A stretch of 41,568 nt of DNA from positions 1 to 41,568 of the forward strand of contig JAUIHE010000008.1 in NCBI GenBank assembly GCA_030432195.1. The letters run 5' to 3'. The translations under genes and the position numbers were made by a program. Below the pieces are notes generated by a model that was not told where the DNA came from, did not search any database, and saw only the letters and a program-made list of their open reading frames with translations. The stretch is from Alphaproteobacteria bacterium. GTDB taxonomy: Bacteria; Pseudomonadota; Alphaproteobacteria; UBA7985; JAUIBT01. Positions 6,644 through 36,953 of the stretch are shown here, one piece after another. How positions within the stretch are numbered: position 1 is the stretch's first letter; every line of letters begins with the position of its first letter.

Positions 6644-7609
6644 CTAGTAATTGGCGTCATACGCTGTAATCCAGATCACCGCGTCTTGCGATAAAGGTTT
6701 GTTATTATAAAATTTTTGCGGACCGACATTCAAAGCAGCAAATCCCCAAGTCCCGGCATGCGGGATGCCAAAACTAAAATAGCCCGCCTCATCGCTCAGC
6801 ACCACGATCGCGCCGCCCGGGGGCTCACTGCGCAGGGCGGGGCCCGCCTTGTTTGCCTTCATGTCCAACGGCGCGGCGATCAATTCCACTTCGATTTCTG
6901 CCCCAGAGACCGGCTCGCCCTCTGACATGACGCGGCCACGAAACGTCGAGCCCGCTAGCACGTTAGTGGGTTTCACCAGGGGCAGAATTTCTGCGGGCAG
7001 CCCCAGTGGCTGGCTCCAATCCGTGGGCAACTGGCCGTGGTTGAGATAGGTCTTGGTGATTTGCTGAATATAGATGCCCTCGCTTTCCTCAAGATAGGGC
7101 GCAGGCTCCAAGGCAAGAACGTAGTCACCGACACGCCGCACGGGCAGCACAGCCTCATAGGCGGCTGCGCTGTTTTCTGCCCCCTCAAAAACGATAGGTT
7201 TCAAGCTGTCGATCAGATCAATTTTTTCGCCGCGATTAACGGCAAACAGTGCCCTTGGCGCCCCCATATCCATGGCTGGCCCGTTTGAATAGGGGTGCCA
7301 AAAGACGAGCTTTAGCGGGATTTCTTGCGGCGCTGAAAGGTTGGTACGCGGGCTGTAAAGCAACTGAAAGTGCGCGAAAGCGGGTGCCGCGGCTAGGATG
7401 CTCAGGCCAAGCACGCCAAGCCCCAGCGACTTGGCCGCTCCCCTCGCAACATCCGCCAGGCGGCCGCGGCCTCTGTCCGCTCGTCCTGCAGCGCCTTGCA
7501 CTGCCTGCTGGAAACCTTCGCCCATCGTATCCCTCAAAAGCAATCCGTCGCCCACCGCAACGAAAGTCAAATCACGCCCCGAGCCATAACTGCTCAGCGC
7601 AGCAAACAT
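6644..7609 (-). CDS. DUF4198/NikK-like periplasmic metal-uptake component
   Basis: Signal sequence ending AAAPAFAHFQLLYSPRTNL, EIPLKLVFWHPYSNGPAMDMG; first gene of the cbi operon. The in-frame Met at about 7525 (MGEGFQQ) is an alternative start. Confidence 0.75.
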   Translation of the reverse strand: MFAALSSYGSGRDLTFVAVGDGLLLRDTMGEGFQQAVQGAAGRADRGRGRLADVARGAAKSLGLGVLGLSILAAAPAFAHFQLLYSPRTNLSAPQEIPLKLVFWHPYSNGPAMDMGAPRALFAVNRGEKIDLIDSLKPIVFEGAENSAAAYEAVLPVRRVGDYVLALEPAPYLEESEGIYIQQITKTYLNHGQLPTDWSQPLGLPAEILPLVKPTNVLAGSTFRGRVMSEGEPVSGAEIEVELIAAPLDMKANKAGPALRSEPPGGAIVVLSDEAGYFSFGIPHAGTWGFAALNVGPQKFYNNKPLSQDAVIWITAYDANY

Positions 7610-7724
7610 CTGCGGTCGTTCAAGGGGATACCGTCGATAGACGAGCCAGGATAGAGAGCCCGCGCCCGTCCTTCCTTCGCCAGACGATCACCCCGTCGTC
7701 CGTAACTGTTGACCAACCCACTGT

Positions 7725-7915
7725 GTGCGCTGGCTATCGGCAGGTCTCCTGGCTCGCGCTTCTTAGCGTGTCCGGTCTTCCCGCTGTAAAAACAGCAGTG
7801 ACGCGAATGGACGTGCTCAGCGCTCACAGTTGCGGGGGCAGCTCTGGATCAGGTCCCTACTGGGTACGCCCTTCCAGATTCCCTTTTCATGCCGGATGTG
7901 TGCTCACCATCGCGG
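7725..7915 (-). promoter_or_regulatory. cobalamin (B12) riboswitch
   Basis: Minus strand reads 5'-GGTGAGCAC...AAAAGGGAAT...GCTGCCCCCGCAACTGTGAGC...TCACTGCTG...GGGAAGACCGG...GCCAGGAGACCTGCC, i.e. the ordered conserved elements including the B12 box. Boundaries approximate. Confidence 0.95.
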
Positions 7916-8192
7916 CAACCGATGCATCTGGGGTAGCGCTGGCCAGCCCGCAGTGTCAAGCAGAAAGGAGTTGGCTGACCGGCACCGATCAGTCAGGCGA
8001 CCCGCTCGACTGCGCTACACACCACCCCACTTGCTAGCGGCCTGCGCAAGGTAGGGGCAAGAATTGGGAGGACTTATCCTTGCTTGCGCGCGCCAGGTCT
8101 CTAGACTGCCAGGGCCGCTTGGGCGCTGTGCAGCCAATGCGCCGCGCAGACGTCAAGGGCATAGATAGAGAAAAAGACAGCTAAGAGAGACC

Positions 8193-23079: not shown

Positions 23080-23932
23080 CTAGATGTCTAGTCCCGCCAT
23101 TTGATGGATTGGGTTGATATTGAACCTCTGTGGTTCTGAAGCCGATTGTTTGCAGATGAATTCCTAGGGTGTAAGGCCCTTGGGCGTTTTGAGAGGACGC
23201 CCGAAGTTGTATGCGTTGATGAAGTCTAACAGATGGCTGCGCAGTTGCTCATGATTGTCGTCGTGGAAGCGCTTGACGGTGGCGTGTTTGATTAGCGGAA
23301 CTGCTGAGCCTTCTGCTCCAGGCGTTGTGAACTGGATACCGTTGTCGGTGAGTACAGTGTGAATTTTGTAAGGAACTGCCTCGATCCGCCGGTCCAGGAA
23401 GTCTTTGGCAACCCGGCTCAGTGCCCTTTCATGCAAGTCAAAGAAGGCAAATTTGGACGTTCAGTCTATGGCAACGAACAAATGCAGCTTTCCTTCTTCC
23501 GTGCGAACTTCGGCAATGTCGATATGAAAGTAGCCGATCGGGTACTGCTTGAACTTCTCTTTTTGAGGGCTTGCCTCCATTAACGTCGGGCAGACGGGAA
23601 ATGCCGTGGCGTTGCAAGTAGCGATGTAGGGAGGATCGCGTCAGATGCGGGATCGTTGGCTGGAGCGCATAGAGGCAGTCATCCAGCGGCAGCAATGTAT
23701 GCTTGCGGAAGGCAAGGATGACTGCCTGGTCTTCCAACGATAGAACCGTCGAGCGCGCTTCTTTCGGCTCGGTTGGCAGGTCAGCCGTCGATGTCCGTTT
23801 CTTCTATTTAGCGCCGGTCTTTTGATTGATCCCATAGCGTTTCGAGTGCGATCTCAGGCCCTCTTGAATATTTTGTAGTGCTCGACGGGTTGCCTCCGTC
23901 GTTGTGGTGCTGCCGTGCAAAACTTGTCCCAT
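23080..23932 (-). pseudogene. degenerate IS481-family transposase
   Basis: Minus-strand pieces in order: MGQVLHGSTTTTEATRRALQNIQEGLRSHSKRYGINQKTGAK*, ILAFRKHTLLPLDDCLYALQPTIPHLTRSSLHRYLQRHGISRLPDV, FVAID*TSKFAFFDLHERA, EAVPYKIHTVLTDNGIQF, ATVKRFHDDNHEQLRSHLLDFINAYNFGRPLKTPKGLTP*, FNINPIHQMAGLDI*; interrupted by stops, a frameshift and an internal deletion. Confidence 0.9.
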
Positions 23933-32725: not shown

Positions 32726-34117
32726 ATGATTGAACCCGTCCTTTCGCGCCTCCGCGGCGACCGCCAAGCCGCCCTTGACCGCCTGTTCGAGTTCTTGCGC
32801 ATTCCGTCTATCTCGACCCAATCCAGCCACGCCGTCGACTGCCAAAAGGCAGCCGAGTGGGCGGCAAGTGATCTGGCAGACATGGGCTTTGCCGCCGAAG
32901 TCGTGGCGACCAGCGGCCACCCGATGGTTTTGGGCCACTTTGATGGCCCCAGTGATGCCCAAGGCCCGCACCTGTTATTCTATGGGCACTATGACGTACA
33001 GCCCGTCGATCCCTTGGACCTGTGGAACAGCGATCCTTTCGCGCCCGCGATGGACAGCGACCCGGCTGGGCGCCCCGTCATCCGTGCGCGCGGCGCCGCC
33101 GATGACAAAGGCCAGCTCATGACCTTCTTTGAGGCCTGCCGCGCCTGGATTGCTGAGACCGGCAGCTTGCCTTGCAAGATCACCGTCATGCTGGAAGGTG
33201 AAGAAGAGAGCGGCTCGCCCAGCCTTGAACCTTTCTTGCAAGACTATGCTGATCGCTTAAAGGCCGATTTGGCCCTGGTCTGTGATACCGGCATGATCGC
33301 GCCGCGTCGCCCCGCCATCACCACCAGCCTGCGCGGTATGGTGTTGGAGGAGGTCCTCATCACTGCCGCCAACAAAGACCTGCACTCGGGTATGTTTGGC
33401 GGTCCGGCCATGAACCCCATTCGGGTCTTGTCCAAGATCGTCGCCGATCTGCACGACGAGACCGGACGCATCACGCTGGACGGTTTCTACGACGATGTAT
33501 TGGAGACCTCGGATGAGCAAAAACAGAGCTGGGAGGCCATCGGCGTCAACGCCGAAAACTTCCTTGGGCCCATCGGGCTGTCAGAGCTGGCTGGCGAACA
33601 TGGCCGCAGCTTGCTGGAGCAGATCTGGGCGCGCCCGACCTGCGATGTCAACGGCATCATTGGCGGCTATACCGACGAGGGCTCTAAGACCGTTCTGCCG
33701 TCAAAAGCCAGCGCCAAGTTCAGCTTCCGATTGGTGGCTAACCAAGACCCGCAAGAAGTCGCCGAGGCCTTCCGCGCCCACGTTACGGCGCGCGTGCCAG
33801 CGGACTGCCAAGTTGAGTTCATCAGCCACGGCCGCGATCCTGCGCTGTTGATTGACACCAGCTTGCCGCAAGTCACACTGGCTGACGAAGCGCTGAGCGA
33901 GGCTTTCCAGGCTCCCGCCACCTTGGTTGGCTGCGGCGGCTCGATCCCGGTTGTGGAGTCTTTCAAGCGCATTTTGGGCATGGACTCGCTGCTGATTGGT
34001 TTCGGGCTCGACGACGATCAAATCCACTCGCCCAACGAAAAGTACGATCTGGAGAGCTTCCAACTGGGCGCTGAAGCCTGGGCGCGCCTTTTGGGCAAGC
34101 TGGGCGGTCAGGGCTAG
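32726..34117 (+). CDS. M20 family metallopeptidase (dipeptidase)
   Basis: LLFYGHYDVQPVDPLDLW, ARGAADDKGQLMTF, MLEGEEESGSPSL, KDLHSGMFGGPAMNP: M20 metal and dimerisation motifs. Confidence 0.94.
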   Translation: MIEPVLSRLRGDRQAALDRLFEFLRIPSISTQSSHAVDCQKAAEWAASDLADMGFAAEVVATSGHPMVLGHFDGPSDAQGPHLLFYGHYDVQPVDPLDLWNSDPFAPAMDSDPAGRPVIRARGAADDKGQLMTFFEACRAWIAETGSLPCKITVMLEGEEESGSPSLEPFLQDYADRLKADLALVCDTGMIAPRRPAITTSLRGMVLEEVLITAANKDLHSGMFGGPAMNPIRVLSKIVADLHDETGRITLDGFYDDVLETSDEQKQSWEAIGVNAENFLGPIGLSELAGEHGRSLLEQIWARPTCDVNGIIGGYTDEGSKTVLPSKASAKFSFRLVANQDPQEVAEAFRAHVTARVPADCQVEFISHGRDPALLIDTSLPQVTLADEALSEAFQAPATLVGCGGSIPVVESFKRILGMDSLLIGFGLDDDQIHSPNEKYDLESFQLGAEAWARLLGKLGGQG

Positions 34118-34301
34118 CGCCTAGAGAGCTGAGGGCAGATGGTGCTATCGCCATTAGCACCATCCCATGCCCAAGGCACGCCATATGGCGCAGAGGAACG
34201 AGCGTTGACACAATCGGCTGGCTATGATGTATTTTTGTTTATGGCTCGTTTTTTGAGTCTAACCAGCGAATCACGGTCACACTCTCGGTTTCAAAATCCC
34301 A

Positions 34302-35642
34302 ATGGCCAAGCCATTCTTAATCTTTGCTTCGGAAGACAAAGAACTAGCCGCGTTTCTCAGCAAACAACTGCAGGGCCCGGCCTACACCTATACACTGAAA
34401 GAGATCGACAGCGACCAGATCACTGAACAGGATCAAAGCCTTCTTGGCGACACATCCGCCATCAACGTGATTCTTTGGACACAAAATTCGATTGAGAAAC
34501 AAACTTTCCAAAACCTTGCTCAAGCGGCACAGCGTTCTGATCGACTGGTGTCGATAACGCTAACCAATGCAAATTGGGAGACAAACTCGACGTTCTTGGA
34601 CGCCAATATTCACATCGAAGTCGAAAACGTCGATGCCATCAAAGATGTTGTTTCAAGCAAAGTAAGAAAGCAAAATCCGTTTGGTTTCTATACGAAATAC
34701 CTCAGATCATATATCCTGGGACACCCAATCAGGTTTATAGCGATCTTCCTGCTAGCGAAGACAATGTTTTCAATGATTGGTGACGCGATTACACTAAGCA
34801 AAATTGCACAAATTATATTGAATCACTATGAAAAAGCCATCTATCTATTTTGGAAGAATGTACTATTTTTTATTCCAAATATATCTCAATTTGATGCGGG
34901 CATGCTGACAGTCTTAGCAATTCTATCAGGTTTGGCTGTACGTATTGATATTAAAAAAACAGTCAATCGCTCAATGATGAATTCGGCAATTAATTCTGTT
35001 TCATGGTCATTTGGAATCATATTTGCAATTTTGCTTTTTTCGCCAATTATATATTTACTATCTAAAACAATGGAAAAAATGTCTTACGAAAACAGTAAAA
35101 TAAGTGAAATTTTTGATACAATTTCGATTCACTACGAACGCATGAACGCCGGACCAAAAATGTTATTGACGCTTATGCCATTTTTTATAATTTTAATAAT
35201 TCAACATTACAATATAGAAAATCACGCGCTAACTTTGCGGAGCACATCTGAGATAAACAGAATGCGCTATCGAGGATCTTTCTATCGCATTCGCCGAATA
35301 CTTTTTTCATATATATTTGACTATTTTTTAATATTGGCCTTCCTTTTTCCTATTTGCATGGCAATAATATATGGGGATTTTTCACATTCAAAATTTGAAG
35401 GATCTGAATTTTTGGCTATATTTCTTATAGCAACACCTTTAGTTATCGTTATTGCAAGAAAAATTTTTTATTTCAACAAACATCGACACAATTCGCACCT
35501 GTCGTTTGGAAGCCTGGCAAAGTGGTTGCTGGCAGCCAACCTTTTGCTCGCCGCTTTGCTTTGCCTAAACTGGATAGCAGTGATTTTCGAAAACAGTTGC
35601 AGCAAGGATGCGTGGATTGAGGTCCTATGCGGTCTGCTATAG
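34302..35642 (+). CDS. TIR-like N-terminal domain fused to a multi-pass membrane C-terminus (function unknown)
   Basis: PFLIFASEDKELAAFLSKQL ... SAINVILWTQNSIEKQTFQNLAQAAQRSDRLVSITLTNANW fits a TIR-like alpha/beta pattern; about eight hydrophobic segments follow; visibly AT-rich relative to flanks. No clear Shine-Dalgarno. Confidence 0.6.
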   Translation: MAKPFLIFASEDKELAAFLSKQLQGPAYTYTLKEIDSDQITEQDQSLLGDTSAINVILWTQNSIEKQTFQNLAQAAQRSDRLVSITLTNANWETNSTFLDANIHIEVENVDAIKDVVSSKVRKQNPFGFYTKYLRSYILGHPIRFIAIFLLAKTMFSMIGDAITLSKIAQIILNHYEKAIYLFWKNVLFFIPNISQFDAGMLTVLAILSGLAVRIDIKKTVNRSMMNSAINSVSWSFGIIFAILLFSPIIYLLSKTMEKMSYENSKISEIFDTISIHYERMNAGPKMLLTLMPFFIILIIQHYNIENHALTLRSTSEINRMRYRGSFYRIRRILFSYIFDYFLILAFLFPICMAIIYGDFSHSKFEGSEFLAIFLIATPLVIVIARKIFYFNKHRHNSHLSFGSLAKWLLAANLLLAALLCLNWIAVIFENSCSKDAWIEVLCGLL

Positions 35643-36953
35643 GTTGCCTATCAGGAAGGCGCTGAAAGCACTCAAGCCCAAAACCAAAAGCAAGGGCAGC
35701 TTCAGGCGCACAAGCAGCACGGCCGCGAACGCCACTAGGGCGAGGGCGTGTAGGTCAAGCGTGCCTTGTCCAAGGCTCCAAAGCCGCAACGGCCCCACCT
35801 GAAAGCTGCCAGCTCCCGGCCACAAGGTTTGCAGGGCAAACCAGGCCGACAGGTTCAAAACCGCCCCGACCACAGCCGCTGAAATGCCCGACAAGACCCG
35901 GCGCAAAGCGGGCACAGCATTCAAACGGGCTATGTAGGGCGCAAAGGTAAAGATCCACAAAAAGCAGGGCACAAAGGTCACATAGAGCGTCAAGCCTGCC
36001 CCCAGACTTGCCCGCCAAAGGCTCAAAGGTTCCTCGATGCGCGCCGCTGCGATAGCACCGACGAATTCTGTGACCAGGATCAGGGGGCCGGGGGTGGTCT
36101 CTGCCAGTCCCAAGGCGTCCAGCATTTCTTGGGCGCTCAGCCAGCCGTGGGTCTCGACGGCGGCTTGAGCCATATAGGCCAGAACCGCGTAGGCCCCGCC
36201 AAATGTCACCACCGCCAACTGCGAGAAGAAGCGGGCAATATGGCTCCAGGTTGACGCCCAACCGGTGGCGAGCCCCAAGGCCAGGATCGGTGCGAACCAA
36301 GCGAGCAGCCAAGATAGGGCGACCTTCAAAGTCGCGCCAAACGAGCGGCCAACAATCGGATAGTCGTGCGGCTCGCTCCCGCTGGTGGGCAGACGCAGCA
36401 ACAGGCCGGCCAGGGCAGCGGCGGCAATCATCAAAGGATAGGGCAGCGTCAAAAAGAACAGGCCGACGAAACTGGCCGCTGCCACCCACCAATGCGCCAA
36501 GCTGGCCAATGCCCGGCGGGCAATCTTCCAAAATGCCAGCACCACCAGCGCCAAGACCGCCGCTTTGATGCCAACAAAACCCTGTTGCACCCAGTCAAGG
36601 GCACCGTAAGTTAGGTACAGCCCCGCCAGCAGGGCCATCAGAGCCGCGCCTGGCAGGACAAACCAAAGGCCAGCCGTCAGGCCGCCGCGCAGCCCGTGCA
36701 GCCGCCAACCGCAATAGGTCGCGATCTGCATGGCCTCGGGTCCGGGCAGCAGCATGCAAAAATTGAGCGCGTCCAAAAATCCGCGCTCGCTTAGCCAGCG
36801 GCGATTATCGACCAACTCCGTATGCATCAGGGCGATCTGACCCGCCGGGCCGCCGAAAGACAGCAGGCCGATACGCGCCCAGACCCAAAAAGCGCTCCAG
36901 TAGCCCGGCGACTGGCTGATATCGCCCCCGATCGCCCGGCGATCAACGCTCAT
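35637..36953 (-). CDS. chrA: chromate transporter (CHR family)
   Basis: GYWSAFWVWARIGLLSFGGPAGQIALMHTELVDNRRWLSERGFLDALNFCMLLPGPEAMQIATYCGWRLHGLRGGLTAG; second half repeats VVTFGGAYAVLAYMAQAAVE. Confidence 0.93.
   Translation of the reverse strand: MSVDRRAIGGDISQSPGYWSAFWVWARIGLLSFGGPAGQIALMHTELVDNRRWLSERGFLDALNFCMLLPGPEAMQIATYCGWRLHGLRGGLTAGLWFVLPGAALMALLAGLYLTYGALDWVQQGFVGIKAAVLALVVLAFWKIARRALASLAHWWVAAASFVGLFFLTLPYPLMIAAAALAGLLLRLPTSGSEPHDYPIVGRSFGATLKVALSWLLAWFAPILALGLATGWASTWSHIARFFSQLAVVTFGGAYAVLAYMAQAAVETHGWLSAQEMLDALGLAETTPGPLILVTEFVGAIAAARIEEPLSLWRASLGAGLTLYVTFVPCFLWIFTFAPYIARLNAVPALRRVLSGISAAVVGAVLNLSAWFALQTLWPGAGSFQVGPLRLWSLGQGTLDLHALALVAFAAVLLVRLKLPLLLVLGLSAFSAFLIGNL

Follow-up and report, generated by a model that had tools for sequence, protein, structure and literature searches.

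Most discussion of bacterial TIR proteins treats them as enzymes that cleave NAD+. NADase activity is found in many bacterial TIRs (PMC8494770), and the catalytic glutamate is required in all enzymatic TIRs examined (PMC10022894). This residue is common in the NADase groups of TIR domains and rare (<10%) in the MyD88 and TIRAP groups; note that its presence is not always in step with activity (PMC7075850). The animal adaptor TIRs of the MyD88 and TIRAP groups work as scaffolds (PMC7075850; PMC8494770).

Canonical TIRs with at least three C-terminal transmembrane (TM) helices are present in other Alphaproteobacteria. The alphaproteobacterial proteins L031 (636 aa), L140-L142 and L161 have the same layout as the protein described here, with the TIR at the N-terminus and a membrane region of several helices after it. 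They differ in that those included in our TIR profile retain the catalytic glutamate, and most are longer. Searches with phmmer and BLASTP, a weak test as no profile was used on either side, found no match between the TM regions of the L031-like proteins and residues 126-446 of our protein. As judged by sequence comparison, the TIR plus multi-TM architecture as such is already known, and the membrane parts of the known examples are unlike the one found here. The locus L161, from another alphaproteobacterium, holds three TIR frames within a short distance, each with 2-4 predicted TM helices, and forms a small tandem TIR-TM cluster. In three further TIR proteins of the same order (L032, L034 and L039), pentapeptide-repeat-like stretches lie N-terminally, ahead of the TIR.

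The gene of interest, which we refer to as the TIR-TM gene, lies at 34302-35642 (+) of the window, the whole stretch of 41,568 nucleotides that was analyzed. It starts with ATG and encodes 446 amino acids. This open reading frame, called in a first-pass annotation made from the sequence alone, was confirmed: among 1000 dinucleotide shuffles of this stretch, no open frame exceeded 193 codons, so the ORF is not a product of chance. The sharp drop in base composition noted in the same annotation was also recovered, with a GC content of 0.38 and a GC3 of 0.40 for the TIR-TM gene, compared to 0.58-0.63 and 0.66-0.75, respectively, for ten other genes of the window. The drop is not uniform along the gene, as GC3 is 0.60 in the first 150 bp, 0.62 in the last 140 bp and 0.22-0.34 in the centre. 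Host-like values at both ends with a very low middle could point to a mosaic origin or simply to a bias in amino-acid usage.

To which family the N-terminus belongs was addressed with several sequence comparisons. The best Pfam family for residues 1-126 was TIR_2 (PF13676; E 0.002), with a score of 19.1 bits compared to a curated cut-off of 28 bits. An independent TIR profile was built from 45 sequences of TIR proteins of relatives, excluding the TIR-TM protein itself. This profile scored residues 1-93 at 24.3 bits, while the reversed sequence reached 0.8 bits and the best of ~20,000 shuffles 13.5 bits. Alignment of the N-terminus to the same TIR alignment with hhalign gave 93% (E 2.5e-7), compared to 3% for the best of 200 shuffles. 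Since both comparisons are clear of the shuffled controls, homology of the N-terminus to TIR domains is well supported at the level of sequence, and the original description of this region as TIR-like is upheld. Searches of NCBIfam, PADLOC, PHROGs and PDB sequences with the TIR-TM protein returned nothing useful. We assign the TIR-like domain to residues 1-93 (34302-34580, +), which align end to end with the TIR_2 proteins of bacteria, from the start methionine through box 1 to strand D. In addition to the score below the Pfam cut-off, the TIR-TM protein differs from TIR_2 in that the catalytic glutamate is replaced by leucine, the FISY-type box 1 reads FLIF, and the tryptophan and glycine of the BB loop are lost. 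The remaining predicted cytosolic part, residues 94-142 (34581-34727, +), may comprise the last TIR strand and a helix, followed by a linker, as suggested by a low-confidence model and hydropathy.

The sub-threshold Pfam score would also be expected if the N-terminus adopted another alpha/beta fold, and Foldseek searches with single-sequence AlphaFold2 models returned ferredoxin-like proteins, without significance, and no TIRs. However, the pLDDT of these models (48 for the domain and 43 for the full-length protein) is too low to decide a fold. Moreover, the order of elements in the full-length model (E5-9, H13-22, E27-30, H42-48, E55-59, H66-78, E82-92, E98-107, H111-118) agrees with that of a TIR domain, which provides weak backing for the TIR fold. 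Considering also the margin by which the independent profile and hhalign exceeded the shuffled controls, and that no family in Pfam outscored TIR_2, we regard a non-TIR fold as very unlikely.

The column of the catalytic glutamate in helix C is occupied by glutamate in all of the 38 scored distinct comparison TIR sequences, and by leucine (L72; codon 34515-34517) in the TIR-TM protein. L72 lies in the ungapped stretch SIEKQTFQNLAQAAQR, and it also falls in the glutamate column when the alignment is made with hhalign. The helix carrying L72 contains no other glutamate. In the profile alignment, the serine of box 1 (FISY), the tryptophan and glycine of the BB loop and the serine preceding helix C are lost as well. 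Because the glutamate column holds leucine and these box residues are missing, the TIR-TM protein is probably not an NADase, and a NADase mechanism as considered at first appears unlikely from the sequence. A membrane-anchored TIR enzyme might still cleave NAD+ through a displaced or unusual active site, in keeping with its membership in a superfamily in which many bacterial proteins are NADases (PMC8494770). Such an enzyme would have to function with leucine where every comparison TIR carries glutamate, without the additional box residues, and against the requirement for glutamate in all examined enzymatic TIRs (PMC10022894); we consider this highly improbable.

The same features set the TIR-TM protein apart from Thoeris ThsB and other TIR NADase defence proteins, with which it shares TIR homology only: it lacks the glutamate, has a membrane region, and no ThsA partner was found beside the gene. 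With the animal adaptor TIRs of the MyD88 and TIRAP groups it has in common a TIR domain without catalytic glutamate. The adaptors have no multi-TM part, and the likeness is one of analogy only.

The C-terminal part of the protein is predicted to span the membrane. Kyte-Doolittle hydropathy combined with a positive-inside count indicated seven TM helices (residues ~143-163, 195-216, 234-256, 283-303, 336-357, 366-387 and 406-428; 34728-35585, +) in an N-in/C-out orientation, and one possible amphipathic or re-entrant stretch at residues ~177-194. The proposed fusion of a TIR domain to a multi-TM region is thus supported on sequence evidence (profile and hydropathy). Of the about eight hydrophobic helices initially counted, the multi-TM character stands, while seven helices plus one amphipathic or re-entrant stretch fit better than eight. 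The predicted cytosolic loops contain 3, 7 and 2 Lys/Arg residues and the predicted outer loops 3, 3, 1 and 1, with acidic residues in excess at the C-terminus and in the second of the outer loops. This charge pattern fits an N-in/C-out topology, which would place the TIR-like domain in the cytosol. Nothing similar to the membrane part was found in Pfam, PHROGs, the PDB or the compared proteins.

We next consider the distribution of the gene. Except in one congener (G001), no homologues were detected in 143 relatives, nor in 385 genomes of the class, 399 genomes of the phylum or 369 gammaproteobacteria-like genomes (class of G549). None were found by tblastn in plasmids and phages, or by pattern scans of genome contigs and viral contigs. 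Note that these searches cover samples of genomes, and that single-sequence queries reach only moderately distant relatives. Matches with E values of 0.001-0.004 were rejected as homologues, being short, interrupted by in-frame stops or located inside an unrelated ATPase-like ORF. By these sequence comparisons, the TIR-TM gene has no relatives outside its own genus among the sampled sets and is an orphan; its relatives do not belong to a core of vertically inherited genes.

Comparison with two congeners revealed how the gene is placed in the genome. Congener G002 aligns with the window up to position 34116 and resumes at 35668. Its site is empty: the M20 peptidase and chromate-transporter genes are arranged tail to tail, and their matched coding parts lie ~9 bp apart. 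The alignment with G002 defines an insert at 34118-35639 (right edge approximate) between these convergent genes. In congener G001 the insert occupies the corresponding site, and contig C14 terminates with the upstream region and the first 29 codons. This left part of the insert (34117-34389) is 95.6% identical between the window and G001 over 273 bp, the highest value of 884 sliding windows (median 79%), compared to a backbone identity of only ~79-82%. The jump in identity is located at the stop codon of the M20 peptidase gene. Synonymous differences to G001 were found in 158 of 463 codons of the M20 gene and in none of the first 29 codons of the TIR-TM gene, which contain two amino-acid changes; at the M20 synonymous rate, the probability of zero in 29 codons is ~6e-6. 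A perfect 10-bp hairpin (GATGGTGCTA/TAGCACCATC; 34138-34164), kept in G001 with one G-T change, closely follows the M20 stop and lies within the insert at its left edge. This inverted repeat could be a terminator or a trace of insertion.

The empty site in G002 and the ~96% identity of the insert to G001 point to recent lateral acquisition or exchange. Most simply, the alignments suggest that the two species had already diverged when the cassette entered or was exchanged; the high identity is less likely to result from unusual constraint on the DNA. Contamination or a chimeric assembly was rejected, since the genes on either side are those of the congener itself and their order is the same. 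A horizontally acquired gene is expected to show an empty site, a foreign base composition and discord with the phylogeny, and all three were observed, in agreement with the horizontal origin suggested in the first-pass annotation.

In G001, contig C52 ends in the end of a multicopy insertion sequence (IS), ~22 bp before the TIR-TM stop codon, and the interior of the gene was not found in the assembly. The gene may thus be broken in this congener, with an IS near its 3' end and its interior missing from the assembly. The IS end (L016; C52, 21725-21823) is 99 bp long and is present in more than 12 copies in G001 and in at least 3 copies in the genome from which the window derives (G000; loci L022, L024 and L026). 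Elsewhere in the window, at 23164-23835 (-), two adjoining short frames (HLTRSSLHRYLQRHGISRLP..., DNGIQFTTPG...), which resemble a frameshifted transposase, possibly of IS481 type, lie in a local GC dip.

The state of the gene in G001, together with its orphan status and the loss of most TIR box residues, would be consistent with a functionless gene, decaying or selfish, that moved laterally and in which a once-canonical TIR-TM protein is losing its constrained residues. This is hard to reconcile with the intact reading frame in the window (446 codons without stop or frameshift), the preserved charge pattern across the helices and the unusual conservation of the insert start between two congeners. 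Decay is therefore an unlikely explanation.

The genomic surroundings provide little indication of a defence function. The neighbouring genes are of the housekeeping type (M20 peptidase, ChrA, pyruvate kinase, GAPDH, SDR and thiolase). PADLOC had no family for the TIR-TM protein and no match among the ten window proteins tested. A defence-island setting, as had been envisaged, was therefore not found. Also in the window, a cobalamin riboswitch (7722-7936, -; 104.5 bits) lies upstream of the gene for a DUF4198 protein at 6644-7609. Neither the same genome (86% complete) nor the two congeners yielded a further TIR or TIR_2 protein, which favours a self-contained protein over one acting with a TIR partner.

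The explanation we tentatively prefer is that the TIR-TM gene is a laterally acquired single-gene cassette, encoding a non-catalytic, cytosolic pseudo-TIR on a seven-helix membrane protein that serves as sensor or effector. The accessory cassette would have landed between two convergent housekeeping genes by lateral acquisition. The TIR part would act without catalysis, by sensing or binding a nucleotide, a signal from phage or stress, or a further copy of itself. Assembly of the TIR parts into oligomers would then alter the membrane part, resulting in pore opening, depolarisation or growth arrest. Since the membrane part matches nothing, we only infer a role as a pore or effector, and the output might be a pore, growth arrest or mere anchoring; oligomerisation and a defence role are likewise proposed. 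A role in conflict, such as phage defence, is the leading guess on account of the lateral movement and the TIR domain, albeit one held with less than even confidence. Against this explanation count the lack of defence neighbours and of a PADLOC match among the ten window proteins, the low-confidence models with their non-TIR Foldseek matches, the sub-threshold Pfam score and the possible breakage of the gene in G001.

The housekeeping surroundings free of nearby defence genes, and an insert that holds no second defence gene, are more readily accommodated if the protein is a membrane-bound transporter or receptor regulated by a domain of TIR origin, functioning in envelope or stress sensing rather than in phage conflict. 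Seven helices with charged cytosolic loops would also suit such a protein. However, its TM region matches no transporter or receptor family, and a gene that is patchily distributed, has moved laterally in recent times and differs in composition is more typical of conflict genes than of housekeeping receptors. We therefore view the transporter or receptor reading as possible, though doubtful. A more specific version of the conflict role can be formulated as well, in which the protein is a one-gene immune protein of a new type: a non-catalytic, MyD88-like TIR switch would oligomerise and gate its own seven-helix effector, all within a compact, mobile cassette. Such a switch would need neither NAD+ chemistry nor a second messenger. 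We regard this version as quite unlikely as it stands.

Because the TIR-TM gene lies outside defence islands and scores below the thresholds of curated models, neighbourhood, PADLOC or Pfam searches would miss it. A bacterial TIR that moves laterally, lacks the catalytic glutamate, is fused to a membrane bundle and comes from a genome in which no other TIR gene was detected would make a good case on which to test whether bacteria, too, use TIR signalling that is non-enzymatic, as in the animal adaptor TIRs.
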